A stretch of DNA of 64,000 nt. Origin: Taxawa tesnikishii (nom. ined.) (lineage: Eukaryota > Ascomycota > Dothideomycetes > Dothideales). The notes beneath the pieces were generated by a model that was given only the letters and a program-made list of their open reading frames with translations, searched no databases and was not told the DNA's origin. The stretch is taken from the NCBI GenBank assembly GCA_030247885.1, contig JAPDRO010000026.1, positions 1-64,000 of the forward strand, written 5' to 3'. Positions 139 through 20,470 of this stretch are shown piece after piece (position 1 is the first letter of the stretch; each line of letters opens with the position of its first letter). Made by a program: the position numbers and the translations under genes.

Positions 139-1308
139 TTATTCTTACTCATTCTTACTCTCACTCACTCACTCTCTTTTTCAATGTTTTTTCTTTCTAC
201 TTTATTTCTTTCTTTCTATTTTATCTCTCTACTTCTTTTATTCTTCTTATATCTTATTACTCTACTACTTTATTACTTTACTACTCTATTACTCTACTAT
301 TCTATTACTCTACTATTTTATTACTCTATTATTTTATTACTTTACTACTTTACTACTTTATTATTTTATTACTTTATTACTATATTTTTATTACTTTCTT
401 ATTCTTTTTTAAATATTACTTTAACTCTACTAATTTATTATTCCATTCTTATATTACTATATCTCTATTACTTTACTCCTTATCTTTTACTATAAATCTC
501 TTATTTTAACTTTTTTCTTTTATTTCTTTTCTTTCTTTTATTTTATCTCTTCTTATTTTCCTATTTTTTACTTTTATTCTATTTCTATATTATTATATCC
601 CTATTACTTAAACTTTCTTTCTTTATTCCTTCCTTATTATAACTCTTATTTTCTAACTTACTTATTTTATTCCTTCTCTTTTTATTACCTTTTCTTTTTA
701 TTATCTTCTCTTTTCTTTTATATTATCCTCCCTTACTTTACTTTCCTTTTTACTTTTTTTCTCTTATTCTTAACTAATCTCCTTTTTCTTTTTATATTCC
801 ACTATTTTACTTTAATTTCTTTTACTTTACTATTAAATCTATTAGTTTTTCTTTTTCTTTCTTTTATCTTTTTTATCTTAAGAGATATATCTTTTTCTTT
901 AAAATATTATACTTGTTATAGAGAGAAATATTACCTTTTTTTTTTGAAAATCCTATATAGAGAAATATTGTTTCTTTCTTTAAAACTTAGCTTTTCTATG
1001 ATTATCGTCTTCTTCATTTATATACTTACTTTTTACCCTTATTTATCTAAACCCTAACTCTTAGTTCTATATTATCCTATATAATCCCTAAGGTTTAAGA
1101 AGAACTTTATTATACTTTAGGATTCTTTCTTAACTTCTTTATAACTTAGCTTAAGTCTATTTAACTAAGTTACTTTCCTTATCTATTAGACTTCTTCTTA
1201 ACTACTCTAACTAACTTATTATTAGGCGTTTACTTTTTGTTAGGACTCTTTCTTGCTTGTCGGAGCTAGTAAGGACCTAACGTATTTACCTCTTAAGCTA
1301 TTATCTAT
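139..1308. other. A+T-rich, pyrimidine-rich subtelomeric tract, no gene
   Basis: The plus strand is almost pure C/T/A with runs of CTTT, TACT and TATT. An open frame at 184-495 is only a low-complexity Leu/Tyr/Phe run. The tract has very few CpA or TpG dinucleotides, consistent with RIP or long mutational decay. No conserved coding sequence is visible. Confidence 0.85.
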
Positions 1309-1404
1309 TTTTTTCCTTCGCTACTTCTTCTGTTTTTTCCTTCACTACTTCTTCTGTTTTTTCCTTCACTACTTCTTCTGTTTTTTCCTTCACTACTTCT
1401 TCTG
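1309..1404. repeat. 24-bp tandem repeat, four copies
   Basis: Four head-to-tail units of 24 bp start TTTTTTCCTTC and end CTTCTTCTG (1309-1332, 1333-1356, 1357-1380, 1381-1404). Three are identical and the first differs at one base; a partial fifth unit follows. The array lies about 50 bp beyond the stop codon of the telomere-linked helicase, on its 3' side. Confidence 0.95.
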
Positions 1405-1451
1405 TTTTTTCTTATAGGTCGTTGCTATTAGTTGTCTCTGACCTCGCTATC

Positions 1452-4400
1452 TTAGAACGACAATAAAGCCTTTGCCGCTACTCTGACTCCCTGTACCGCC
1501 ATTCCGCCTCCAAATCTTGTCTCCTCTCCCAACCAGTCAAAGAAATCCTCCACCCCGGCGAATCTGCGCCGGAAGTGGTCCTCTAGCCATCTGGCTCCTC
1601 CGGCGCTCACGAATATCCCGTAACAGAGCGGCAGGACCACGTCTCCGTGCTCACACGCTTCTTCCTTACTGGTCTTGCTGAGCTCAGCCCTTTGGCAGAT
1701 GGACTGAGGGTTTAGGCACCAGAAGCAGCTCGTGTACGGACGCAACCACTTTCGTCCGCGTGTCTCGTGCCGCTGCCGTACTCGACTGCGCTCGTGAAAC
1801 ACCTCATGCCGCCGGGCACACTTGGAGAACTCGTGCTTCCATTCCTCGTCCATCGCACGGCAGAGCAAGCATGTCCCGCGCACGCTGGCCAGGTCCAGAC
1901 GGTAGTTGACAAGTTCGGAGTGAGCCTGCAGCCGCTCTTGCTGGATGAGATCGAGTCCGGTGTGGGCGGTCTGCCGTCTTGTCGCGTCCGAGGCTGCGAT
2001 TGATCCTCGTGAGCCGCTTTGCAGACGTCGCAAGCCACGTCTTCCGGCATGCACCACCTTCGGTGCTGAGCGAGATCGAGGTGTTCGCTCAGCGAAGTTC
2101 GGAAACATTGCTCGCCTCGTAAGTACTTGTGCACGGCCTGCTTGTCCCGTCGCTTGCGAAGTGACACGTCGTCCCTGCAGCTGCCCGTCTGCTCCGAACC
2201 GACGTCGACGTCGTCTTCGAGCTGTGCCTGCCACGTCGCCGGCAGGAGAACCATCGAGTACGCCTCCATCCCGTCGCGGCCGGCCCGACCCGACTCCTGC
2301 GCGAAGGTGACCAACGAGTCCGGCTCCCCTACGTTCATGACCAGACGTACATGAGCGTGGTCGAAGCCTTCGGCAAGAGCGGTCGTGGCAACGAGATACG
2401 GGCGGTCGGAGGTATGGATCCAGCGATCAACGATGAGCTTCTTCTGTTCCGGCGTTCCGCTCTTTGCGGTGTATGCAGCACAACCAAGCAGTTGGCACAG
2501 GCTGTCCGCGTCCTCACACGTTCGGACGTATAGGACGATCTTGTCACGGGAATGATCGAACAGGTCGGAGTCGCGCCACGCGTCTTGCGCTTCGACCGCA
2601 CTCTGCTCCAGAAGGCTGCCTTTGCGAGGGTCTGCCCTGCGGACCATGTAGAATATGTTGGGTCGGTTGCTCGATGCTCTGATGGTTGTCGGACGGTAGA
2701 GGTAGTTGCGCTCCTCAAACTCCTCTTTCATGGACGGAGGCAGTGTGGCTGTCAGGTAGACAAACTGCGTCCTGAGATTGCGGACCGCAGTAAGGTCGAC
2801 GATGCTCGATCGGTAGTCAACGGCAGTCACCGTCAGGTGGCATTCGTCGATCACGATTCGATCGAGTTTCTGCTGGACGATCAGGCTTCGTGCGTATTTC
2901 GTGAAGTGTGTTGTGGCCGCAGCCTCAACGCTGACGATTATCAGCGATGCTTCTCGACTTTCTCCCGGCAACCATTCGAGGTGAGCGATGTTCAGTTCCC
3001 GTATCCGCCGAAGCAGGTCTGCCCGAAGGGATACGAGCGGCACGATGAGGATGGTGATCCCGGCATCAGGCAGCGTACACGGCAACATGAAGGACAGGCT
3101 CTTTCCGGCTCCGGTTGGCAAGATGGCCACCACCTGCTCCGTCCACGACATGATCGTGGTGAGGGTCTGTTCCTGCTCCCTCGATTTCCACATCATTCTC
3201 TGGTTGCCGTAGAGCTTTCTGAGCCCTTCCAGCAGAGCCTCTGCCGACCACGGTTTGCGGGGCCGATAGACACCCTTGGCAAGTCGTTCCTTCAGTCGAC
3301 ACTCTTCTCCGTCCCTCTTTCGCTTCTTGCCTTTTAGCATCGTCTCCACTCCCCAGAAGTCCTGCCACAACGTTGACGCGCGAAGTCCCATTCGGATCAG
3401 CCCGTCCCACACGTTGCCGAAGGTCGCTCCCGTCTGATTGGCATACGCCCTGTTGACCGTGCGTGTCTTGTGGTTGCGCTGTCTCGTCATCGCTCGGATA
3501 TCCTCCTCCATCTCCTCGGCGTCCTCGTCGTCTTCGTTGACTTCGAAGCAGCCTATGTTGCTCGCAAACTTGGTCTTGACGATGGCCACGCTCATCTGGC
3601 GCCAGTTGGAAACGTGAAGCCGGGGTGTGCACGCCCGAGCACTGGCTTCCTCCAGACAACGACTCAACCGTCCTTCGCCCCACACCTTTCCGTCTTTCTC
3701 CCACAAGAACGAGGAGAGCAGTGCCTTTGGTGATTGCTGCCGCAGAAAGACCTGTCGTAGCGGCACGACATAGACGAGGTAATCCAGCAACAGGTCGCCC
3801 ACCGGATTGGCGAGAAACCGGATGTTTTCCTTGTACCTGCCCGTCTGCTGCTGACCTTTGTGGTATTTGACATGTATCATGACACGATCGTGGCGGAGTG
3901 TGATGGATCGTCGTCGTTGCGTGTTCCGCCAGGTCATGGAGAAGAACTCGCTTTCGCGGATGGGCTGACCGCCACTGATGTGAACGAGGACACACAAGCG
4001 TTTCAAGAACTCCTGCACAGTTGCCTCGTAGCCGGCTAGCGCACTGTCCCTCCAAACGAAGCCGCTCGCTGATCGACGGTCTTGCTGAAGGAAAAGGCGG
4101 CACAGTTGCTCGGAACGCTCAACGGCGGCCAACAGAGCTTTGTCCGTCCCCCTCAGCAGGAGAGCGTTGTCACGATGCTGGATCAAGCTCCAGCCGACGG
4201 TATCGACGTTGCCGCTATCTCTAAGCGCCCAAGACTGCATGCGGCGTAGGTCCTTCTGACCCAGCAGCAAGTCGTCGTACAGTAGCCGTTCGCACTCACG
4301 GTATTCGGAGAGCAGTAGCGTGGGGATCTGGTCCATACGCAGCTCTGTATCTTCGTATGTCAGGACCTGTTCGCTTTCGTCCCAACAGGCCTCATGATCA

Positions 4401-5885
4401 CCCACGCTGTCCTTCGAGATGCGAAACAGCAACAGGCGCCAGCGGAGTATCTCCCCATCGGCGTCTCGGCCGTCTGCTGCAGATAACTCTCACAGCATTC
4501 CTTGACGAGCGCGAGCGTTTCTCCCCACCCTGCCGCTCTTTGCGAGCACAGTCATAGAAGATCAGCAGCTGCGCGACCCATATCATCGCAGACAGACTGC
4601 TGTTGAAGTTGCCGGGTTCCATCCAGCCTTGCGTAGACGGCTTGATGCTTAGCATCGCGCAGAAGCTCACTATTGGCGAGCGGTACCGTCGGGCTCCGGT
4701 AGTGTGACGGATAACGAGCATCCATAACTCAACCAGCCCATCTCTCAGTTGGCCCTTGATCCCTTCACCCGTGCCCGTCGCTCCCCGTTCTGCTAACCGA
4801 CGGAGGTTATGCCACACCACCCTTTGCTTGTCCGTCGGTTCGATCACGTCCTCTGGCCGGATCGTCTCCTCCGAGTCAGCACTGAAGTGGTACTCGTCAC
4901 AGATCGCCACTCGCTCCAGGTACGACAGGAACTGTGACGCCAGCTTGAAGTAGACCTTGAGCGTGCCGGGCTCCTTGTAAGGATCGAACGGCCGAACCTT
5001 CCCAATCGACTCGACCTGCGACGACTGGAACCGACTGAGAACGACGCGACATGGCCAAGTGAGCATACAGTCGGGTCCGTCGAAACACCAGCCGTGCGCC
5101 TCCCTGAGCACGTCCTCCATCGCATCGACGATCGTCCGCAGAGGACATCCTTCGTCTCGCGAGGGCACGGCGATCGCTGCTCGGATCTCGTCTTTCTTCA
5201 AGCCGCAGACATGGTCGACGATGCCGGTCTCTCTGAGCCATGGTACCACGGTAGAACGATGCTCGTCGAATCCGCGGACACGGTTGGCCGCAGATGCGGC
5301 GTCGCGCTCTGCCTGAAGGATGTCTTCTTCTTGCGTCCGGAAGAAGTCACGCTGGTGACCGGCTCGCCTCCGACCGCAAATCTCCAGGTCCGCTACTTGG
5401 ACCTCGAAGTACCTCTGCCAGCTTCCGACCTTGAAGAAACGCTGACAGGCGCGGTCGCAAGACCACAGCTTGTTGTGGGTATGGACCTGCTTCAAACGAG
5501 CATCGCCGCCTCGCTTCTGTCCGTTGACCCAGCCGTGTTGCCGCTCACAATGATCTTGCATGCCACGCGGAGTGCGGCATATATAGGGACAAAGCCTGCC
5601 TTCGCCATCTTTCCCGCCACACTTCAAGCCGTCGAAGTACACCGGAAGTCCCGTTACGGGAGGCTCTGTTGCTGCTGGATAGATGACATCTGCCTCGACT
5701 TGCGCAAGTTCGGTAAAAGACCCGACTTTGGCAATAATGTCCCGCCGTTGTTGTAAGCTGAGACGCTTGTGATGCACACGAAGATGTTTGGCGAGCTGCG
5801 AAGGTACGACTGCATACTGACAATGGATGCAAACAAGGATGCGGTGCTGGGCGACTACTTGGAAGAGACGATGAAAATCATCCAT
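1452..5885 (-). CDS. Telomere-linked RecQ-family helicase (OrsD zinc finger + recombinase-like domain + helicase)
   Basis: Reads toward the telomere. The N-terminal part (5885 to about 4525) opens with OrsD/DUF3505-type zinc fingers (CIHC...H...H, then CGGK...CPYIC...H...H). The next part, numbered from the TTG at 4432, shows R159, H273...R278, H321 and Y330 in the order of a tyrosine-recombinase site. It continues with RecQ motifs: Walker A TGAGKS (440-445), DECH (529-532), TAT (561-563) and QESGRAGRDG (712-721). The C-terminus is Cys-rich (CLLC, CFWC) and ends at 1452. The frame changes at G4 runs 4523-4526 and 4453-4456 and again somewhere in 1960-2030. Each change fits one missing base, giving 1,478 residues in all, so sequencing error is as likely as decay. 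Family knowledge: subtelomeric TLH helicases are common in fungi; their role in telomere maintenance is suspected. The recombinase assignment is my inference. Confidence 0.85.
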
Positions 5886-6225
5886 CTGAGTCTTGGCTTG
5901 CCTTCACGGCTGCCATACTTGCGAGGCCAGACATAGCTATATTACCTTTCTAAGGATTTAAAGGATCCATGTGATGCTCAGGATCAATTGTTTAGAGCGT
6001 ACTGATCACGTCGCATAGACACAGGGCTGGTCTTTGTTTGGAGAGGCCGCCCTGCGAAAATGCGGGAGTGGCCTATGCACAAGGCGCCTCATCTTTTTCC
6101 TTTTAAGACCGCCGCCCTTGATGTTCCATGTATATGGCATATATATGAGTGGTGTTTGGCATGCAGAGAGAATAACCTTATGACAGTATAGTGTGTGGGT
6201 TTCGAGAAGGTTGGGGCTCGGGAAG
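5886..6225. promoter_or_regulatory. 5' flank of the telomere-linked helicase
   Basis: This is non-coding sequence of normal composition upstream of the helicase start. It contains TATATGGCATATATATGAG near 6130-6149, a TATA-like stretch about 250 bp upstream of the ATG. No other conserved element is recognised. Confidence 0.4.
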
Positions 6226-6317
6226 GCAAACGAATCGTGGTCAACAGGTGCAAACGAATCGTGGTCGTTCCTCTAACCCTTAGGGTTATAGCCCACGCAA
6301 AAGCAAACGAATCGTGG
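6226..6317. repeat. Three copies of GCAAACGAATCGTGG around a head-to-head telomere palindrome
   Basis: The 15-mer GCAAACGAATCGTGG occurs at 6226-6240, 6250-6264 and 6303-6317. After the third copy, CCATTCGTTTG carries the inverse complement of CAAACGAATGG, a near match to the repeat core. Between copies two and three lies TAACCCTTAGGGTTA (6274-6288), a perfect palindrome of two telomere units meeting head to head. The cluster sits exactly where normal sequence gives way to the RIP desert. Confidence 0.9.
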
Positions 6318-9300
6318 CCATTCGTTTGACTTCTACGAGTAGTAACTAAATCCTCCCTAGTATATTTCGGATTCTAATATCTAGTAAAGAAGTACTTAGC
6401 TACTATTAGTATAATACTAATAAGTTTATATAATAATAAGGATACCCTTATACTCTTAATTATTTCGAAGACTTCTTTAAGATTAACTTCCCTTTAAGTT
6501 ATCTTATCTTATCTTAGCGTCTTTAGCTATATCTTACTATAAACTTTCTATATAGTAGGAAAATCTTTTATACTTAGTTCTAGGCCTTTTACTATTTAGC
6601 TTTACTTTATATTATTTAGTAAAGTTATATTCGAAAGTTTTAGTTCTATAAAATATTTAACGTACTATTTAGTTCTTATAAATTTTAAGACTAGAAGCCT
6701 ACTAGTAGCCTTCTCCTTCTCTTTTAGCTTACTAATCTAGTAGTCTATAGAATTAATATTACTTTACTTCCTTCTTAGTACCTTATTAGTACGTACTATA
6801 GTAATACTAATAGTTCTCCGAGAGGTTTCGACTATATAATACTAAATAGTAACTTCGTCTTTAGAGTCTTTTTCCCTATTACTAGTTAGTCCTTTAAGTA
6901 ATACTTTTAATTCCTCTAGAGGGTCTATTATAAGGAACCTTACTCGTATAAAGCGACTCGAATATATATCTTCCTCTTCTTCTACTACTCTTACTATTTA
7001 AATAATTACCTTCTTTAGTCCGAAGTATTTTAGTACTTACTTATATTAAGAAGGTTTTCTTCTTTCTTTTTAACTATAGAGACGTTTTAAGGGCTTATTT
7101 CTACTACCTAAGAAGATACTATTACTATTATAGTACGCTTAGTCTTTACGCTTATACTCTTTAAGATATATATAACTATTTATATTATAACTTAGTTTAT
7201 AGTAGAACTAGTAATTTATAAGTTCTTAAGGGCGTATAGGAATAGTATTCGCTCTTATAACTAGGGATCTAAAGGCCCTTTAATACTATCCTCTAGTAGT
7301 TATAAGTATTACTCTTATAACGTTCTTTAAACCTTTCTATATATATACTAATATAAAGTAATTAACTAGCTAGCCTACGTAAATAAATATCTTATTTACT
7401 TACTTAGCTAGTTTCTTTATAGCCTTATTAGTATACCCTCTACGTATCTAATTAGTCTTAAAGCTTATAGCTATACTCTTTTTCGGAGTATAATATAATT
7501 TTACTATTTCCTTAAAACGACTATTATTAGTTATAAGGCCTATAATTCCTTAATAACTAATCTTCTTATTTAAGAACTTCTTAATTACCTTTATAATCTT
7601 TACGAAGTTTCTAAAAGTAGCTAGATCCTTACTATTTAACTATACCTTTTAATATACTTTCTCTAATATAGAGGGTACTAGTTCGCGTAATAGTAAAGAC
7701 GCTCGTTTAACTATATTTATATACTTATTTAGTACTTTCTTTTATAGAACTTAAAAGCGCTAATAGTATCCTTTCTAGTCTTTTAGAGTTTTACCTTTCT
7801 AATCCTTAGCTTTCTTATAGAAAGTAGCTAGTATAGACTTAGTATTCCTCGGATAGTTAATATTATCTTTTTAGTATTCTTAGAGGATTTCTCTCTTTAA
7901 ACTAATTTAGTTCCTATTTATATAAGAATCTAGAGACTAGATAAATTTAGTAGGTCCTTTATTTATATACTAAGGAAGAAATCTAATAGACTTCTCTAGA
8001 GTAATAAAGTTATTAATATACTACTCTTTTTAGACTTTAATAAACTAAGTAATATTACTACTAGTAAACCTTAGAGATCTAATAGTATTTAGCTCTAGTA
8101 AGTTACTACTAGTAATAAGGTAACGGAGATTTCTAATAGATAAGCCTTACTTTCTACTTATACTAATAGATACTTAAATAGGAGTAGTAAGTTAAACTAT
8201 AGTAAAAGTAGTTATAGTTTTACCTTAGCTATTACTAGGAGTATAGATAGCTTAACTATTAGACGAGGACGTTTTTATAACTAGTAGAAGCTTAAGATTA
8301 CTATTTAAAGTAAGTCTAGGAATATTATTATAAGTATTAAATAGTATAAAATCCTCGTCGGACTAGTATCTTTTATTAGTAATATAGAAGGTACTAAACG
8401 CTTTTCCTTCTCTAAAAGTAATACTTTAAGTAACGTTCTTAAATATAGTAAGTTCCGTAAATATTATAACGTAGTAATAATAATATAGTTTTTATTATAG
8501 TAAGATTTCTAATATTATCTTTAGTAAATAAATATAGATTTCTATTTAAAGTAGTACTATTATCTCTATCTTTTATAGTAACTTAGTACCTTATACTTTA
8601 TTTTTAATCTCTAATAAGGTTTATCCTTAATATAAGTATACCTTAGTATCTATATAGTTCTTATATTTTTAGATCTAACTAAGCCTTCGATATTACTTAC
8701 TCTTATAAGTATACCTTTAACCCCTTTAGTTTAAATACGCTCCGATTCTAAAATAAAAGCCTTAAGATACTAGCTATATAATACCTTATAAGGGTTTCTT
8801 ATATATTATATCGCTAATATAGGAGCTATTTCTAGCCTTTAAGGTCCTTTATATCGTCGTAGATACGTAAGTAACTAAAGGGGTTAATTGTCCTCTTAGT
8901 ATCGACTAGAACTTCTACTATTTTCCTACTACTTTACGTACTCCTTTTATTAACTATTTCCTTAAGGACTTTATTTCTCCCTCTAGTATAATTACTAAAA
9001 ATATAGTAGGAAGAACTTTATATTAAGTTAAGTTAAGACTATAAAAGGTAACTACGTAAGTAGTAATAAAGATAGTAGTTAGTAAGATATAAGATAAGAA
9101 TAAGATATAAAAAGAATAGTTATTAATTAAATAAGTAACTATCTTATATACGAACTAAATAAGTAAGAATTAAAGGTAGCTTTTACGTAATTAATAACTT
9201 ATAACTATCTAGTAGTTACTTTACTATACTAGATATCCTAGAATATAAAGACTTAATATAAATCTTATAGTAGATATATAGTTAAGCATAATAGAGAAGA

Positions 9301-10130
9301 GTAGCTACTTTCTATTAAGGCTAAGTTAAAGTCTAATTTACTTTATATTACTTTAACTTATAAATCTACGAATTTAAAAATAGGATTTTATAACGTTATT
9401 ACTTTCCCTTTCGCGCTAATTCGATTCTACTATATTATTTTAATTTATATAAATAACTATAATAAGCTTAATAAATAAATTCTTTAGTAAGAGGAGACTT
9501 ATTTTTATTCTTATAAGAGGAAATTCGAAGAGATAGTTTATACTTATAAGAAAGTAGTTAATAAGAGAAAATATCTAGTTTATTATTAAAAATAAATTAA
9601 AAGAGAAGGAAAGTATATAAACGATAACTTTATCTTTAACTTTAAAGGAAGAGTTTATAATAACTATATAGCCTCTTACCTTTTCGTCTTATATTTAAGC
9701 TAATATAAAAGCTAAATACTAAATTATTATTTATATTAGTAAGGATAATTAAGACTAAATTAAGGACCTAGATATAGCTATAACTAAATAAAAGGAGCTA
9801 AGGAATAAATACTTAAATAAGCTTTAAATAATAATAAAGTAGTACTTATAGGATTTTATTAACTATAAGATAAGTCTAAAGATAATTATAAATAAAGTAT
9901 AAACTTAACTAACTAAACTAAGTAAAAAGGTAGCTACTACTTAACTAAATATAATAGCTATTAAAAAGCTAAGTAAAAGACTTTAGTAGTTACTTTAAGC
10001 TTTACTAAATAAATATATTATTATAAGGGATACTATTAATACTTAAATAAATCTACTAATTAAGGAGTCGATTCTTAAGTTTTAAGAAAAAGAAGCTTCT
10101 CTTAAGGCTAAGGCTAGCTAATTTACTCTT

Positions 10131-10295
10131 TATTATAAGATAATAGCTACCTAATTCGAATAGATAGTTATATAACTTATTAAGCTAAGTAGGGAATTTC
10201 TTTATTCCCTAGCTACTATTATAGATAACTTAATTAATTAATAAGTTATAGTTAGTTTTACTATATATTCGGTTATAGTTAAGTACTTAGTTTAA
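10131..10295 (+). repeat. Left LTR of the Copia fossil
   Basis: Direct counterpart of 14355-14518. The original TG start is presumably now TA, as RIP would produce. The right boundary is judged only from where the similarity ends. Confidence 0.75.
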
Positions 10296-13200
10296 TATTC
10301 TTCTTACTAAAAGGTATTAATAATAAAAGACGTCTAATAGAAGGAGATCCTAGTTACTAAATTAAGTTAAGTATTATCTTTATAATAATAACTACTAGCT
10401 AAAAACTACCCTTCTTTTAAAGATATAAGGACTATAACTAAGGATAAAAGAAAGTAAAAGAAGTCTTAAGTTAAGCTAAAGAGGAGTAATAACGATATAA
10501 TAAACTTAATTAATAAGTTCTATAAGGAAGTTATAAACTTAAAGTAAAAAAGGATAAGCTTAAAGTAAAAAAGAGGAAGTATAAAGCCTTTAAAGCTAAG
10601 GAAACTTTAACCTTAAGTAAATCCTAGACTATAAAGTTAAACTTATTAAGCTAAGATTAAGAGTCTATAGACCTTATTAAGAAAGTTACTTATTTCTCTA
10701 AAGAAGTAAGAAGTAAAGTTCCTTACTAAAGCTAGACTTTTAATACTAATATAAGTTTATATATAACTAACTAGCCCTAGTTATTTAAGGGACTACTTTA
10801 AGATATCTTAAGACGAAAGATTATAGTAAGAGGAGGAGTTTTATTTTTAAACTACTAGGGTATAGTAGAAATAATAAATAAGAATAAGAACTTAATCCTT
10901 TTATTAAAGATACTTTATATTTCTAATCTTAAAGCTAACTTATTATCTAAAATAAAGATATATAAGAGCGGACTTTATAAGACCTTTAACGAAGATAATA
11001 TATACTTAAAAGATAAATAAGGAAATATTATAGTAAAGGTAAAGTATAAAGGTAGTATTTATATTATAAATAAAATTACCTCGCCGAATAATTAATATAT
11101 GTTTTAAGCTATATTAGGTACTTATTAAGGTTCTATTCTATTAAATTTACGAGATAAGATTACTTACTAATAGGTAGAATTTATATAGCTCTAAGAGCTA
11201 AGTAATTAGCTAGCTAATATACTGAGAATTTACTAATAAAAGTCGAGGTAAATATTATATAACTCCCGGAGTTATATAAAGATCTAATAAATAGTTCTAA
11301 AAAGGTACTAGTAAAAGATATAACCTAAAAGTAGAGATACTAACTATAGTATAAAAGGCTTACTTATCTTAAAGCTAAAAAGATTAGTAACTTATATAAG
11401 GTTATAATACTTACTAAACTAATCTAAATTAATAAAAGCTATTAATATAAGATTTATATACTTACTAAGATTAGGAATAAGAAGGGACCTCTCTTAATAA
11501 GAAAGTTAAAGGTACTTAACTTAGTCTATATAAATATTTATAAACTATTCGAACTATTATAGTAAGGGTATATTATATTCCTTCTTATTATAAATAACTA
11601 CTTAAGGAAAGTCTAGATCTATAGACTAAAGACTAAGGATAAAGCTCCTACTTACCTTTAGTAATAAAAGAAGAAGGCGAAACTCTAAGGTAAAGTTAAA
11701 CTTAAGGCTATTAGAAGTAATAATACTCCTAAGCTAAAGGAAGTCTTTTAAAAGTAAAAGAAATAAAAGGGAGTTTAACTTTAGTTTACTATTACTTAAA
11801 TATCTTTATAAAATAAAGTTATTAAAAGAAGTAACTAGACTATAGAGTTTAATATAAGGGTAATACTTAAGGACGTAAGGCTACTAAATAAGTTTTAATT
11901 GAAGTAATATAAACTAATATTTACCTTAGAAACCTTATATTTAACGGACTAGTTATTAATAGTAAATAGCTTAGTCCTAAGGAAGTTTTTACTAGAATTA
12001 CTTTATTAATCGACTATATTAGAGTCTAAGGTTATAAAGTTATTACTTATATAAACCTAAAATCCTTACCTTTATTTTTAAGATAAAATAAGCTAATAAA
12101 TAGAAGTAAAGTTAAAGTCTTTATAAGTTATATTAAAAGTATTACTAAGTAATAAAAGCTCTAAGTACTAAATATAAGAAAGATAATTATAAGTAAAGTA
12201 ATTAAGTTCTTTAAAAATAAAAAGGAAGGGAATATTAAGCTTAATATACTCGTTAGATTTACTTTAAATATAGTACCTTAAAAGAGGCTAGTTAATAGAC
12301 TAAGGAGGTAGCTAATAAAGTCTATACTAAGTATTTATAAAGATATACTATAGTAGGAGGAGCTTCTTAAGACTATAAATTAAGAGGAGTCTTATATAAC
12401 TTAATAGAAGGAGTCTCTATAAAAAGAACTATAATAAAAGGAGTAAAAGATAGTTATTTTAACTTAGCTAAGAAACGTATTTTCTTACGTTAAGATTTCT
12501 ACTTTAACTTTATTAAAGAAAGTCTTTTCTTACGTCGAAATCTTAATACTTAAGAAAATAAAAAGAAATCTCGATAAAGACGAGTTAGAAATTAACTATA
12601 AGTTAACTAAGATCTTTAAGGCTCTTATAGCTCTACTTATAAAAGAAGGATAAAGTTAAGTTATCGCTCTTTTTAAAGTTAATTAAATAGAGGAAGAGTT
12701 TACTTTTATAGTAAAAGGTAAGATAAATATTCTAATTTCGCGAACTTATTTAAAAGCTATTTATAACCCTATTTAGAGAGAACTTTAAAAGGAGGCTATT
12801 AAGAAGGAGCTAGATACTTTATAAGTAAACGTAATATTTAAAATAACTACTCTACTAAAGGGGTAGAATATCGTATTAAGTAAATAAGTTTTCAATATTA
12901 AGTTTAACTTAAATAGATCTCTAAATAAGCTAAAGGCTAAGCTAATAGTAAGAGGATTCTCCTAAAAGTATAGTATTAATTTTAAATATACTTTTGCTCT
13001 TACTTTAAGGTATAATATTTTAAGAGTCTTCCTAGCTATTATTATAATCGAGGATTTAGAGTATTATTAAGTAAACGTTAATAATACTTTTATTAAGTTA
13101 TTCTTAAAGGAAGAGATTTATATAGTACTTTTACTTAATATTAATCTCGCCCCTAGCTAAGTACTTAAGGTTCTTAGGAGTCTATATAGTCTTAAGTAAG

Positions 13201-14354
13201 TAGTAAGGGACTAGAACTAAAACTATATACTATAGCTTTAAAAACTAAGCTTTATTTAAAGTAAGGTAAACTTATATCTTTTAATTTACTTAAAAAGGAA
13301 GATACTTCTCCTTATTTACGTAGATAATATCTAAGTAGCGTATAAGAACATTAATAATATCCTATAGTTTAAAGAGGCTTTTACTTTTATCTTTAAGATT
13401 AAGGACTTAGGAGAAATTAACTTTATTTTTAGAGTAAGAATTATAAGAAATAAGGAGGCTAAAATAATTAAAATAAACTAGTCTTATTATATTAAAGATA
13501 TTCTTACTAAATATAATATAAAGAAAGATAAAGCTTACTTAGTAAAGGTACTATTAAATAGTTACGATATACTAAGACTAGTTAGACCCTAAGATATAAG
13601 AGTAAACTAAAGAAAGTACTAGTATCTAATTAAAAAGATAGTTTACCTTAGTATTTTAATAAGGCCTAATATTACCTTTGCCTTAAGTAGACTAAGCTAG
13701 TACCTTATAGATCTAGTAAAGTTTTATACTAAAGTAACTAAGAGAATCTTAAGGTACTTAAGATTAAATACTAACTTAGTAATTATTTTAGGAGTATACT
13801 AAGACTAATATTTAACTAGCTTTTTAACTCTAACTATATAATAAATAAACGAGATAGGATCTTTATCCTTAGTAATATATTTATACTTAAAGGAGGATTA
13901 ATTAGCTAAATAAGTAAAAAGTAAAAGTTAATAGTAACTTTTACTATAGATACTAAGTATATAGTAATATATACTTACTTAAAGTAATTATAATAGCTTA
14001 TACTACTCTTAAGAAATATAGGCTATTAGTACCTTATTAGTAGCGACCCCTTTAAGCTAATAGTTTAAGAAGAGCTAAAGTTTACTATTAAATTACTTAT
14101 TATACTTAAAGGAAATAACTAAGTTACTTTCTTTCTTATTTAAGATACGTATACTTATAATAGATTAAAGTACATCGATATAGCCTATTATTATATTAAA
14201 GATTTATATAAGAGGAAGAAGATTAATATTAAGTTTATTAGTATATAAGAGACAATTATTAATAACTTTATAAAGCCTCTTTAAGATTAGTATTTCTAGA
14301 GGTTTATTAGTTAACTTAGACTATTTAAAGAGGACTAATTTAGCTAAGGAGAAG

Positions 14355-14518
14355 TATTATAAGATAATAGCTACCTAGTCCGAATAGATAGTTATATAAC
14401 CTATTAAGCTAAGTAGAGAATCTCTTTATCCCTTAGCTACTATTATAGATAACTTAATTAATTAATAAGTTATAGTTAGTTTTACTATATATTTAGTTAT
14501 AGTTAAGTACTTAATTTA
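14355..14518 (+). repeat. Right LTR of the Copia fossil
   Basis: Starts immediately after the AAGGAGAAG purine tract and matches 10131-10295 along its whole length with scattered transitions. Confidence 0.75.
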
Positions 14519-15445
14519 ACTTTAACTATAATTTATAACTATAATTATATAATTAGAATTTAAGTAACTATATATACTTATAAGTACTTCCTTATTAGAT
14601 AACGTAATCTATAAGAAAGTAAATTAAGCGAAGTAGCGAATTACTAAAATATAACCTTTTAACCTTTTACTATTACTATAACTTACTATAAGTACTACTA
14701 TACTTAGGAAATATACCTATATAAAAGAAGATATTTAGAAGGCGATATTTACTATAAAAAATAATAAGTACCTATTAATTTATATAAGTACTCTTATATT
14801 TAATATTTTAAACTTAACTTTACGTAGTTATATATTTAAATAAACTTTACGCGCTATAGTTTACGAAGAAGAATAACTACTTTTAACTATAAAAGAAAAG
14901 ATACTAATATAATAGATTATATATCTTATATATACTAAATTCCTTATGTTACTTATATTAGCTATATAAATAGCTAAGGAAATACGACGTATATACGTTT
15001 AACTTTCTAAGGCTTTTATACTAACTCTTTAACTAATTAGTAAGTATTAGTTTAATTACTTTAAGACTTATTATCCTAAGATTATAAGTATCTAGATACG
15101 TTAGATTAATAGCGTATAGTTTAAAGCGACGAGTTATAAGAACGTAAAGAAGTAATTTAACGTAGTAATAAAGATATAAATATAAAACTAATATAATCTA
15201 AAGTACGTTTATAATATAAACGAGTTTAACTTCGCTATTAAAGCAAGTTAATTATTAAGAGTATTAGTTAATATACGTAAGGATAGTAGTTAAAAGTAAA
15301 TTAAAAGTAAGTAAAAATAAATAACTAGAATTAAATACGTAAGCGTTACTAGTATAGTTATTTTACTATTATTAATTTATAAGGTAAAATATACTAATAC
15401 TACGTAGATACTTATATAAATACTTAAGGACTAAGGGTTCTTAAC

Positions 15446-15521
15446 TATTAATATATATAACTCTACTTAAAGTATATAAGTATAAATGCTTATATAACGT
15501 TACTTTTATTATAAGTTAAAA
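15446..15521 (+). repeat. 76-bp direct repeat, copy 1
   Basis: Matches 15745-15820 without gaps. I count six differences, all transitions, as expected from independent RIP of two once-identical copies. Confidence 0.85.
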
Positions 15522-15523
15522 GG

Positions 15524-15604
15524 TTATAAGCTCGAGTTAGCGCGTTAGTTAAATCGTAATCTTAATATACGATAGAAAGTTACGAGTTTAATTTCTACTT
15601 ATAT
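15524..15604 (+). repeat. tRNA-like segment, possible RIP-mutated SINE head
   Basis: The segment has an A-box-like stretch (TTAGCGCGTTAGTTAAA), a possible anticodon stem (TCGTA...TACGA) and a B-box-like stretch (GAGTTTAATTTC, close to GGTTCRANTCC after C-to-T change). TATAAG and CTTATA can pair at its two ends. It lies between the two 76-bp repeats. A tRNA-derived SINE or dead tRNA copy is the likeliest reading. A functional tRNA is unlikely, because the stems are imperfect and the anticodon loop is about 9 nt. Confidence 0.35.
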
Positions 15605-15744
15605 TATAGTAAAAGCGCGTAAAATCCTAAATAGAAGTAAAGCCTTAATAAGCTACGAAGTTAACTAATAAGCCTAGAAGGTTATAAGCCTCGAATTTAT
15701 TAATAATATTATATGCTTATACTCCTTACTAGGATTAGAGGGAG

Positions 15745-15820
15745 TATTAATATATATAACCCTATTTAAAGTATATAAGTATAGACGCTTACGTAACGTT
15801 ACTTTTATTATAAGTTAAAA
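15745..15820 (+). repeat. 76-bp direct repeat, copy 2
   Basis: Second copy of 15446-15521, 223 bp further on. It keeps slightly more C and G than copy 1. Confidence 0.85.
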
Positions 15821-17730
15821 TTAACTAGTAATAGTAGTTAGATATTTAATAGTTATAACTATAAGTAACTAACTACTATATTTAAGCCTTTAATATAACT
15901 AAAAGACTTTATAAGCTAAAGATTACTAATTATAGACGGTTATAGTAGCTATATTATTAGTAAGGTAATTATGTTCTATATATAAAATATAATTAACTTA
16001 ATAATATTACTACCTTATTATTTATATATACTTTAACTACTTAATATTAGCGTATTTACGCTACTTAAGTATATACTAACTTTTAAAACTAATGCTACTC
16101 TTCGACTTAACTTAGGCTATATCTTACGCGTTAAATAAGTTAAGATATATACCTATATAAGAGTAAAGGTAATTACGGCTAATAATATCCTTAATAAATA
16201 GCGTAGTACTAGTTTAGTACTACTAAGTCCTATAATAGTACTTAATAAGTTACTTATAAGGATAACTCTAGTTACTTTACTATTATATATACTATTATAA
16301 TAAACTAATTTAGACTTATTACTACTTAATAGCTTACTACTAAATAGTACTAAACTACGCGAAGTAAACGTACTATTTAACTCTATAATTAAGGTAATTT
16401 AAGATACTTTATCTCTAGTAAAGTAGTATATAGAGTATATAACTTATACTTTTAAATTAACTTATAGCGAGAATATTACTTTACGAAAGTAAGTAAAAGA
16501 GTAAGAAGAGCTTCTTAATATATAAAAGACTCGAAATAAAGGTAAGTAAGTTAAATTAAAAGGATAGTTTATATTTAATACGTAGGAAGTACTTAAGATA
16601 ATAAAGGTAATAAAAGTAAAGATAGTAAAGAAAAAGACTCGTAAATAGCTACGTAAGCGTCGAATTAAAGAGGTACTTAAAGATAAGGAAGATAAAGAAC
16701 TTAAGAGCATATTTAGTAACTTAGATTTTAATTATATTATTATTACAATGCGTAGATAATTAATAAAGTCTAAAGGGTAAAGATTTAGTAATTTACTACT
16801 TTACTTAATTTACTTCCTTATAAATTACGTTATATAAAAATTGGAAATTTAATAAAATAAATAAGTAATAATTATAAAAACTAAGTTTAAAGTACTATAT
16901 AAGATATAAATAAAGAAATAAAGATATATTTAAAAGTTAAGTTTAAAGTCTTAGTATTAGAGATTTATAGTAAATTAAAGATTAATACTAAGATAAAACT
17001 AGTAATAAGGAATTAATTAAATATTTATAATAGAAGATAAAATATAAAGAAGAAATAAAGAAGAAACTAAGAGAGAAAAACGCTATAAAGTATTTATAGC
17101 TACTAAGTTTCCTTATAATATATAAGTAAAGTTTATAATATATTATATGATAAACTAGTATAATCTTATTAAAATAAGTAATTCGTATAAAGTAAAGGGT
17201 TTTAAGTTAATATTATAATAGTAACTCCTCTATAAAGGTAGTTTATAGTAACGTATAAAACGCTAGGACTTAATAGATTATAGTAAAGACTAATTGTTAT
17301 CCTTCTCTAAGGGACTTCTAGCTCCCTTATAAAGTAGGACGAGTTCGCTTCGTAGGCGAGTCCTAGGCGTTTTACAACCGCCCGTAGTATCTACTTAATA
17401 AGACTAAATTCTTATAAAGCCTTATATAAGTATAATAAAAGGTTTAAATAAACTAACTTAATAGAAGGCCTTAATCTTAAACTATAGGTATTTAACGTAC
17501 TTATATAGCTTATAAGTAAGTTTTTAATATCTAGTTCATTATATAAAGTATTTTACTCTAATAAGTAACTTCTTTAATTTAAAATAATCTTTATTATTAT
17601 AATAGAGTAACTATTTAGGTTTTTGTACTAATTACGAAAAGTTATCTTTATTTTCTACTTATTTAGTCTACGTACTCTTTATTACGCTATCTCTTAAATC
17701 TCCTCTTAAACTTAGGATTAGGGCTTTGTT

Positions 17731-19563
17731 GTTATAGTATCGCCGTCGAAAGCTAGTAGGTGCGCTTTTATGGTAGGGTAGCCGGCTCGCTTAGGATCGC
17801 GGGTTCGCTTACGGACTACCTTATTACTATTCTACCTAGTCTTATGTTTCGTACTCCTTTCACTCACGTGGCTCATCAGCTGACGGACTTACTGCTGGCA
17901 AGCAGCTTCATTAGTAAATAGGAGAACGATATCTGGATTGTTCATGTAAACCAGGTTACCGAACGGCTCGCGACATTGCGCGAAAGACCACATACCGATG
18001 TTTGTTCCCTTTATCAAGTTCGCGAGTCCTAGGAGTCAAATGCGGAGGTAGCGGTCACCTGTAGATGTCTTCCTCATCTAGCTCTCTTGAATTCTGTTCC
18101 ACCGTACGGTATTATAGTGGACTCTGCGGCCGTGCAGAACAACTTTTTTATAGAGTAACATCGTTGTCCCGCATTTCCTAGCGGTTGTAGCCCTGCGTGG
18201 GAACAGTAGGCGGATCTTTGCAGATTGACTATATCATGAATTGGGGTAAATGATACTCTGCTACCTATAGTCATGAGTCAACGACCTTGCGAAGCACCAC
18301 GCGCTTGCCCTGCACTATGGTGCGGAGGTAACAGAGATTTTCCTCGAGAATGAAGGCAGCATATCTTGTGCTACCCTCATGCAACTCTGCGAAAGCTCAC
18401 GATCGCAGAACAATAGCGTTTTCACCCAGAACGACATGGCAGCCAAGTCGTGTGTATCGCACAAGAAACCGGCTTACACGATAGAGACTTTACGATGGGA
18501 TCGAACCCACTCCACCTTCGAAACGATTTTCTACGCTTCCCGAAGTCGTCCAGCTATCGTCTTATAACTTCACTTCATTCTGTATCTCTTGGTCGCGGGC
18601 TGCCGCAGCACTTTATGGAGATGACAGAGAGCGGCCAATCTTTCCAGCCGAACCTATGCTACCCAGGCTGGCTGATCTCAGAATACTATCAGTTACTTGA
18701 TAACTTCACGCCGTGCTCTCTACTAGACCGTCCTGTCTTCCTCCTCAACTGCGAGTGCCAGAAGGGGTTCACTCCTTGAGTCTCATATCATGCAGTTTTG
18801 TGTCAAATGAATTTGGCCTGTCAAATGTATCGGCAAAGCGGACAGAGTTTGGGCCTCGCGAAGCTTTACAGTTTTCGGAAATATGCTCGACCAAATCTCC
18901 AACATCTCCACTCTAATCAATAGCCCCTGACAAGGGTTGAACACTAAAACCAAGCGCCTGGGATTATGCGGTGGAAAAATATCGTACCGCACGTCGGTGT
19001 TCTGCCTCTCTGGTTGATCATCGAGAGGGACCGAGCAGCAAGCCGTAATCGGAAATGCCACACGTTGAACCCTTCGGTTCTTGTGGATTGTGAACCGTTT
19101 TTCATAGCCAGGGTTGGAGCCGTTCCGCAGTCGCTGCGCAGAGCTTTTGGGACACAGTTTACCGGCCACAACGGCCATCCTCAAACAGTCAAGGATGAAT
19201 GACTACAGAGCACCCACAGATATATGGTCACGATCGGGTCTCCACTGCACGATTCGAAGATCTTCTGCTGGGGTTGGTAGGAAATATCTCTATGCAAGCA
19301 TCACGGGTTGCAGATATGATTGCCCGCGGACGTTCCGAACTCTGCTCATCCAGCTAAACCTTATCTTTGTACCTGACTCTCTCGATATGTATTATTACTA
19401 TCGGGCGCGCTCTTTCGTTTGTCAAGCTTCGAAACCGTCTGCACGTTCTGTATTCTCACTCCTTTGACCTGCTCCCTACCTTCGTCACTCGTTGTTGGAA
19501 CGCTTGCTTCTTACCGTACTCCTTAGATACCCAGGCCTTTGCCCACGTTTAGCAGATTTTACC
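17731..19563. other. Transition zone, no recognisable gene
   Basis: Base composition returns to normal over about 17.70-17.88 kb and CpA/TpG reappear. Only short frames occur (for example 18783-19184 minus, 133 codons), and none shows recognisable domains, conserved splice structure or repeats. It may hold decayed sequence, regulatory DNA, or a gene too diverged to recognise. Confidence 0.6.
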
Positions 19564-20470
19564 ATGCTCTCTTCTACTCTTTCAGCATTCCTTGTCGCCT
19601 CTTTTGCCCTGACGGCTTCTGCTTTCGATGCGGTCGCTGCCCCAAGCACAGTAGCAGCCGGAAGCGACTTCACAATAACGATCACTCCAGGCAGCGACGA
19701 GGCCACGTACAAGTCATATAGAGTCTATCTAGCGTAAGACGAACCCATCGCCGGATGTTCACTGTGCGCTGACACCTCCCAGAGCTTTCCCTCCTGGCTA
19801 CTCTGGAGGCCCAAGCTGCTACCTTGAGAACTCCACTTCCACCACAAACACAACCTTGTCGTTGTCGATACCAGCCGACATTGGTCCGAACAGCGACTGG
19901 TTCTCGATTGCGACGCAGGAGTTCCCTCCAGCCGACTCCAACAAATACACTTTCTCCAACCACTTTAATCTGACTGGCTCGTGGGTGCAAAGGAACAGCT
20001 CGAACACGTGCACAGCTGACGTGAATTATAGTTCGCTTTCCTCCTGGTCTGATTACGAGAACCACCTGAACGGAAGCCTGATCTGGACACCATCCGCTCT
20101 TCCGTGCAGCAGTTTCAACTGCGCGCGGCAGTGCGCAATGGCATCCTACCCGGATGACCTTACCAAGGACTCCGCGGCATACGGTACAATGAGCGACTGC
20201 ATCCTCAAGTGCCCAGGCGTCACTGCGCGGGCTCCTGAGACATCGTCTTCTTCGGCTTCGACTTATGCTTCCGCTACTGGCATGGCTACGAGCACCAGAA
20301 GCGGCGCGTCAGCGACCAGCTCGTCTGGAAACACTGATGATGATTCTACAGCTTCCTCGTCGATTGATGCTGCGCCTGCTGCCACGTCGACCGGAGCTGC
20401 TGTGAACCTCGGCGTTTCTGGTTCTTCACTACTCATAGCCGTTGGAGGTATTTTCGCTCTTGCTCTATAG
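19564..20470 (+). CDS. Secreted, Ser/Thr-rich, probably GPI-anchored cell-surface protein
   Basis: Two exons, 19564-19733 and 19783-20470; intron 49 bp with donor GTAAGA and acceptor CCCAG; 285 residues. Residues 1-20 (MLSSTLSAFLVASFALTASA) form a signal peptide. A beta-rich stretch follows (APSTVAAGSDFTITITPGS), weakly reminiscent of the Kre9/Knh1-type immunoglobulin-like domain. About seven cysteines follow, including PCSSFNCARQC and DCILKC, and several N-glycosylation sequons (NSS, NTT, NYS). The C-terminal quarter is a Ser/Thr/Ala-rich stalk ending in a hydrophobic tail (SSLLIAVGGIFALAL) typical of GPI-anchor signals. The specific function is unknown; wall structure, adhesion or host interaction are all possible. 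It is the first intact gene after the subtelomere. Confidence 0.8.

Follow-up and report, generated by a model that had tools for sequence, protein, structure and literature searches.

Telomere-linked helicases (TLHs) of fungi, among them the Fusarium and Magnaporthe TLHs, the Mycosphaerella RecQ family and UTASa/UTASb of Ustilago, are multicopy RecQ-type helicase genes located beside telomeres. In the accessible parts of the literature, to which all our statements on published systems refer, they are treated as belonging to the host, be it as telomere-linked helicases in F. oxysporum (PMC12857005) and Mycosphaerella (PMC4522978), as helicases for which OrsD is mentioned in Ustilago (PMC10532341), or in a review of the group (PMC8381367). 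The question is why such genes occupy chromosome ends in such numbers. Here we describe a TLH gene of Taxawa tesnikishii (Dothideomycetes) in a stretch of 64,000 nucleotides, hereafter the window, which is the left end of contig C19 (JAPDRO010000026.1) in a genome of 29.4 Mb and 34 contigs. The gene is part of a terminal unit that extends inward from the telomere as far as an exact border at position 6342, and this border, which meets 51 different flanks, turns the question into a testable problem of transposition. Unlike the unit described here, the TLHs are presented, as far as those texts are accessible, with no mention of a tyrosine recombinase (YR) domain, an exact inner border or a target site (PMC12857005, PMC4522978, PMC10532341), and the word 'recombinase' is absent from the main text of PMC10532341 and PMC8381367.

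The unit also shares features with several kinds of mobile element. In comparable fashion, Starships carry a YR gene as the first gene inside their 5' edge and have short variable direct repeats at the insertion site (PMC12506042); their captain, however, is a DUF3435 protein and both of their ends lie inside the chromosome, whereas the unit has the telomere as its outer side and a RecQ helicase fused to its YR-like domain. Cryptons, in the initial annotation a possible source of the recombinase, are fungal DNA elements moved by a YR with an R-H-R-Y tetrad (PMC3212892), from which the unit differs by the absence of the box II histidine, by the fusion with helicase and OrsD, and by its terminal position; neither 'helicase' nor 'RecQ' is found in that paper's main text. 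The TATE elements of trypanosomatids likewise encode a YR and are tied to telomeres, but they are retroelements clustered within the telomeric hexamer repeats (PMC6681497), whereas the border of the unit lies in unrelated, mostly AT-rich DNA. Finally, MoTeR, FoTeR and yeast Y' resemble the unit in being repeated at chromosome ends. Y' spreads by recombination, and MoTeR and FoTeR are retrotransposons; in the unit, the three reading frames of the gene contain no reverse transcriptase above the Pfam cut-off. FoTeRs are known to co-occur with TLHs (PMC12857005). Among open-access papers we found no account linking a telomere-linked helicase with a tyrosine recombinase, and none that combines three of the terms DUF3505, OrsD, recombinase and helicase; most subscription papers fall outside this scope, and an earlier description of the border is possible.

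An exact border at many chromosome ends

The unit comprises, from the outside inward, about 80 bases of telomere repeats (CCCTAA and CCTAA variants; 11-93), a distal part consisting of a CACTC run followed by AT-rich DNA that resembles the product of repeat-induced point mutation (RIP; 94-1451), the TLH gene (1452-5903, minus strand), and a leader between the first frame of the gene and the inner border (5904-6342). The gene starts about 450 bp inside the border and reads toward the telomere. The last bases of the unit form a 23-mer (6320-6342, plus strand) that ends in AG (GTAG). Ahead of the telomere repeat stand ten non-telomeric bases (1-10), perhaps an end artefact.

How exact is this border? 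With 5880-6345 as a genome query, for which 40 of 51 candidates were scored (the window included), all matches shown are 100% identical from the first base, and all of them stop at base 463-466, that is, at window position 6342 plus up to three bases. A search that tolerated one mismatch found 51 copies of the border 23-mer in the genome, all of them exact. Fifty of these borders are found 6,236-6,374 bases from a contig end, 27 at left and 23 at right ends, and the 51st is inside contig C2, next to a run of N between two telomeres at a scaffold join. At some other contig ends, e.g. those of C25-C28 and C32, the border was not seen. On the outer side, window 150-1700 finds a full-length match at all 40 scored places (63 candidates); the unit is common up to the telomere at the places scored, and a second end inside the chromosome was not found there. 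A protein search of the genome with the second frame of the gene gave 68 matches, with 52 of 161 candidates scored; every match lies at a contig end or by the telomere join of C2, and in having many copies directly at telomeres the gene agrees with the known TLHs. The scaffold join itself (L097, C2:865105-865764) links two telomere-bearing ends by the run of N, and C2 is probably two chromosomes.

On the inner side of the border all 51 flanks (those of the window, L042, L062-L071 and L098-L136) differ, the longest prefix common to any two being 6 nt. Some pairs share a repeat family but differ in position or orientation within it, and G+C is below 0.40 in 48 of the 51. The initial annotation had suggested a self-spreading or telomere-copying system, and spreading between chromosome ends is supported by 51 exact borders against 51 different flanks. 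In the window the unit interrupts a RIP-mutated dispersed repeat (6343-9231), for which the two RIP indices, TpA/ApT and CpA+TpG over ApC+GpT, are 1.97 and 0.0. The same indices are 1.64 and 0.25 for the distal AT-rich part of the unit, which is RIP-like, and 0.54 and 1.08 for the helicase gene, which is free of RIP despite its copy number. As the flank is heavily mutated while the gene shows no RIP, the gene-bearing part presumably arrived at, or was re-copied to, the flank sites after the target DNA had been mutated. More widely, the DNA between the unit and the gene-rich part of the window (6343-20000) consists of strongly RIP-mutated dispersed repeats with TpA/ApT of up to 1.97, one of which has copies elsewhere that are up to 91% identical. 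Together with the telomere repeat and the type of gene, the RIP signature suggests a filamentous fungus.

Paralogues of the flanks that lack the unit reveal the bases that precede the junction. At the site of the window copy, TAG stands at the junction in all 12 internal copies read. Further unoccupied sites were obtained from 11 stretches plus two cross-comparisons, from five readable flank cross-comparisons and from another 15 stretches, with reciprocal unoccupied copies in the pairs L068/L069 and L113/L134. An unoccupied paralogue was available for 21 sites, one of which was unreadable (L114, where the alignment starts at flank base 44) and was dropped. At the 20 readable sites the junction is preceded by TAG in eight cases and by AAG in nine, giving AG, the same AG as at the end of the unit, in 17 of 20. 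Given that AG makes up 7.0% of flank dinucleotides, this excess has a p of about 2e-17, or 3e-16 without L121, a site retained as uncertain (alignment from flank base 11); part of the flank queries included 12 border letters, which may slightly favour paralogues that share the last bases of the unit. Variation within a site is seen at L070 (AAG in two of four copies, AGG in the rest), L065 (TAG in two of three) and L124 (AAG in two of three), and could be explained by RIP. In 20 of 51 cases the flank begins with G, compared to 11% after TAG within the flanks (p 1.8e-7); no further common target sequence was seen by eye. The combination of an exact element end, unrelated sites and short target identity that characterizes Cryptons and Starships is present here at the inner end only.

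Next to the border, the leader contains three exact direct copies of CAAACGAATCGTGG (6227-6317, plus strand; starts at 6227, 6251 and 6304) and a perfect inverted repeat with 9-nt arms and a 7-nt spacer (6304-6328), for which the chance expectation in the window is 0.04 when up to 3 mismatches are allowed. The four copies of CAAACGAAT recur in each of the 11 border loci whose retrieved sequence extends across this region. For comparison, YR sites typically have inverted repeats of 11-13 bp around a spacer of 6-8 bp (PMC3212892). Upstream of the other lineages of the gene, only one overlapping palindrome was found, in L044.

A tyrosine-recombinase-like domain in the helicase gene

The gene had been described in the initial annotation as an OrsD-RecQ fusion with a Cys-rich tail at 1452-5885, and both domains and coordinates hold, with three frames separated by 1-nt shifts in place of one. 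The first open reading frame (ORF1, 4401-5903) carries the OrsD finger at about 5532-5867 (Pfam PF12013, E 1.5e-23). ORF2 (1715-4489, 874 aa) encodes a pre-recombinase region, the YR-like domain (3347-4054, aa 95-330) and the core of a RecQ-family helicase (1985-3181, aa 386-784), and ORF3 (open frame 1455-2426, stop from 1452), to which coding is assigned in the 3' part only, encodes a CxxC-rich C-terminal tail; all three are on the minus strand. The resulting order is OrsD finger, long middle domain, RecQ-family helicase and Cys-rich tail. In Pfam the helicase part matches DEAD (E 3e-13) and Helicase_C (4e-11), the RecQ-family model TIGR00614 reaches E 6e-36 and 124 bits, below its curated cut-off of 219.8, and a PDB search with the helicase part of copy L016 has human RECQ5 as its top match (E 2.8e-26). 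The gene possesses the RecQ-type helicase of a TLH.

Among 30 copies scanned (L009-L038), the break between the first and second frames is visible in 29; for L034 the Walker A tag used for locating was unmatched and no tagged frame was returned. In three copies (L016-L018) the second and third frames are fused into a single frame of 1012 aa. Over the parts compared, the 30 loci are 99.84-100% identical to the window copy, from which they differ by 60 one-base gap columns and 2 substitutions. As one-base indels thus far outnumber substitutions, and as an indel excess of this kind is typical of long-read consensus error, the frame breaks look like such error, with real frameshifts as an alternative. 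An intron was also considered and is less likely: the paralogue L043 has a single open frame at this place, whose residues match, by eye, the short in-between frame of the window, so that 1-nt shifts fit better.

What kind of protein is the middle domain? Diverged relatives of the gene are located on contigs C2 and C27, and we aligned ten pieces from six lineages of this genome with MAFFT, at 11-40% identity to the window row and without reference to recombinases; some tails of broken pieces are misaligned, e.g. that of L040 around K160. Ten of the columns in which five or more lineages are represented are invariant; among them are R127, E130, R173, R246 and Y298. Across the six lineages the domain displays a signature in YR order, R-x2-E, the box II R and H-x8-Y. 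R127 (3956-3958), E130 (3947-3949), R246 (3599-3601) and Y298 (3443-3445, this and all other codons on the minus strand) are present in all six lineages, H289 (3470-3472) in five, with Arg in L041, and K160 (3857-3859), a candidate for the beta-hairpin Lys, also in five, the sixth letter stemming from a misplaced piece. The spacing of nine between H289 and Y298 in the alignment is the same as that between H270 and Y279 of XerD. The domain has the box I Arg, the box II Arg and, nine after the box III His, the nucleophilic Tyr position of the YR superfamily. None of 200,000 column permutations of the alignment reproduced the ordered signature, under spacing limits chosen after the alignment was seen. 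The catalytic residues proposed in the initial annotation were R159, H273, R278, H321 and Y330, which correspond to ORF2 numbers plus 32 (R127, H241, R246, H289 and Y298); three of the five proved invariant and H321 is kept in five of six lineages, while H273 is not conserved among the six.

A comparison with known recombinases points in the same direction, though weakly. We used hhalign to compare the alignment with a YR profile of 15 sequences (lambda Int, Cre, XerD and 12 phage integrases). In the best local alignment, 128 columns long, R127, E130, R246, H289 and Y298 stand opposite R148, E151, R247, H270 and Y279 of XerD, at a score of 20.07 and an E of 0.029 for one comparison. This score was attained by none of 150 controls with permuted TLH columns (maximum 17.21) and by none of 200 with permuted YR columns (maximum 19.89); the profiles give 11-12 when reversed, and the adjacent N-terminal region of this family gives 13.61. 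Over a wider region, hhalign aligned 19 columns only, at box I. The six-lineage alignment, the permutations and the hhalign comparisons thus uphold the earlier suggestion of a YR-like middle domain with conserved catalytic positions.

Several results weigh against this assignment. The histidine of the box II HxxR motif is absent in all six lineages, where the residue three before the Arg is S, S, L, Q, R and S; some members of the YR superfamily do lack this His. The hhalign probability is only 1.72%, the score ranges from 13.46 to 21.42, often over far fewer columns, when single TLH rows are left out, and individual rows score 10-18 against the YR profile. K160 is not paired with K172 of XerD, and in global mode 3 of 150 controls attain the observed score. 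No YR family was found for the middle domain in Pfam, PHROGs or a PDB profile search: the PDB search with the alignment gave one non-YR chain at E 1, PHROGs matched four families over the ten aligned members, none of them named integrase, and a phmmer search of the PDB with the window segment gave no match up to E 10. An AlphaFold model of the YR-like segment from one sequence has no usable fold (mean predicted local distance difference test score 32.9). Nevertheless, the middle domain is in our view quite likely a divergent tyrosine recombinase, an assignment for which the conserved active-site pattern counts more than the profile score.

Three queries of viral contigs and one of genome contigs returned no relatives outside this genome; the ten-row alignment was too variable for patterns to be derived from it. 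DUF3435, the captain family of Starships, has no match in the frames of the window at E up to 1 in Pfam, and a single one in the genome, at 17 bits against a cut-off of 25.8 and with an internal stop (L039, C24:107741-108025).

Probable mobility of the unit and rival explanations

What do these observations say about the nature of the unit? Because a sharply bounded unit meets different DNA at the same base at many chromosome ends, it is probably a mobile element, more than a host gene alone, and its mobility is well supported. We consider it fairly probable that the unit is a terminal mobile element with the gene at its core, whose YR-like domain would join the border to AG and whose RecQ part would aid copying outward. 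The scenario starts from what is shown above, an inner end fixed to the base and joined mostly to sites ending in AG. From its residues we infer that the divergent YR domain would be catalytic, recognizing the repeats by the border and joining the border to AG in a recipient chromosome; its role as the joiner is suggested by the conservation of the active-site residues and by the position of the gene just inside the border, as in the case of the Starship captain. As the outer side of the unit is the telomere, the join would then be completed by copying to the end of the donor chromosome. We hypothesize that the RecQ part opens the donor and that break-induced copying lengthens the strand of the recipient along the element as far as the donor telomere, which would leave the donor in place and the recipient capped; reciprocal exchange would be an alternative for this step. 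Later exchange between ends may help to keep the copies alike.

A number of observations count against this scenario. Not one of the 30 copies scanned is fully open across all the tags by which the frames were located, and neither an insertion intermediate nor a fresh insertion was seen. Three of the 20 readable targets lack AG (L126 with TAA, L134 with AAA, and L098 with TTA and TCG in two copies). The inverted repeat, moreover, does not straddle the border but ends 14 nt short of it, within the unit, for which reason it may be a candidate binding site of the recombinase rather than a crossover site.

If the unit is indeed such an element, a combination of YR and RecQ that exists solely in the form of a chromosome end would be the DNA-based equivalent of the telomeric retrotransposons and would constitute a route of chromosome-end rebuilding besides telomerase or homologous exchange. 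More tentatively, and with considerably less confidence, TLHs of this type could generally serve the transposition of a class of DNA elements that are one-ended and cap chromosomes, in which the YR would join the sole true end to AG and RecQ would drive copying to the donor telomere; such elements would spread from end to end, replace the old end of the recipient and be able to supply a lost telomere. Should the residues and borders described here recur in other fungal TLHs, a gene family long interpreted as telomere helicases of the host would turn out to be one of mobile elements.

Among the rival explanations, the one that fares best, unlikely as we judge it, assigns the inner end to another nuclease or transposase. 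The joins to AG would then reflect microhomology of 2-3 nt or break-induced replication, and the YR-like domain would be a relic or serve for DNA binding only. The AG is an identity of just 2 nt and as such compatible with microhomology joining, and the YR assignment has weak profile scores and lacks the HxxR histidine. However, end joining usually trims both partners, whereas all 51 copies of the unit end at exactly the same base, and the YR-like residues have been conserved among lineages that are at most 40% identical to the window.

It is rather improbable that the gene is an ordinary host helicase of subtelomeric location, with homologous exchange between ends as the sole means by which its copies spread and remain alike. 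Gene conversion would lead one to expect the near identity of the copies (99.84-100%), and the accessible texts on TLHs treat them as telomere-linked genes of the host (PMC12857005, PMC4522978, PMC10532341). Yet homologous exchange would not set one exact border against 51 different flanks, and it leaves the AG at 17 of 20 unoccupied sites unexplained.

Still harder to sustain is a telomere-processing enzyme, with the YR-like domain acting as a protelomerase or resolvase at chromosome ends and spreading as a side effect. Protelomerases of the YR superfamily do exist and the unit does contain a palindromic site, but this palindrome lies by the inner border, separated from the telomere by more than 6 kb, and the outer end has ordinary telomere repeats. 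Lastly, an assembly artefact, in which the software attached a consensus chromosome end to many contigs, could be invoked for the near-identical copies and for the run of N between two telomeres in C2, but is scarcely credible in view of the one-base indels scattered between copies, of the junction AG that is also present in unoccupied paralogues, and of a second family with a similar layout.

Two known modes of transposition were considered and rejected. Helitrons end in CTRR, whereas the unit ends in GTAG; its helicase is of the RecQ type and its three frames contain no Rep domain in Pfam. Addition by reverse transcription does not agree with an exact end upstream of the gene, nor with the Pfam scan of the three frames, to which this search was limited and in which zf-RVT, at E 0.12, stayed below the cut-off.

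A second family and older genes

A second, diverged family of the gene is represented by L041 and its copy (L040 plus L095). Both copies begin upstream at one base, 239 nt before the open frame, and the DNA before this base differs. As in the main unit, the gene closely follows an abrupt inner border and is oriented toward the telomere, which is about 14.3 kb from the border base in both copies. Over the 5.6 kb compared they are 99.75-99.92% identical, the remainder amounting to 8.7 kb. With two copies, a single shared duplication may be an alternative origin of this family.

The left end of C2 looks as if it had been capped repeatedly, for there the main unit is attached about 1 kb past the helicase part of a diverged and older gene that reads in the same orientation (L042). 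C2 has the most matches of any contig in the OrsD search and carries several diverged, mostly broken OrsD-RecQ genes (L040-L043, L045). One of these adjoins a frame of 349 aa that, by eye, resembles a DDE transposase (L043:346-1395, minus strand).

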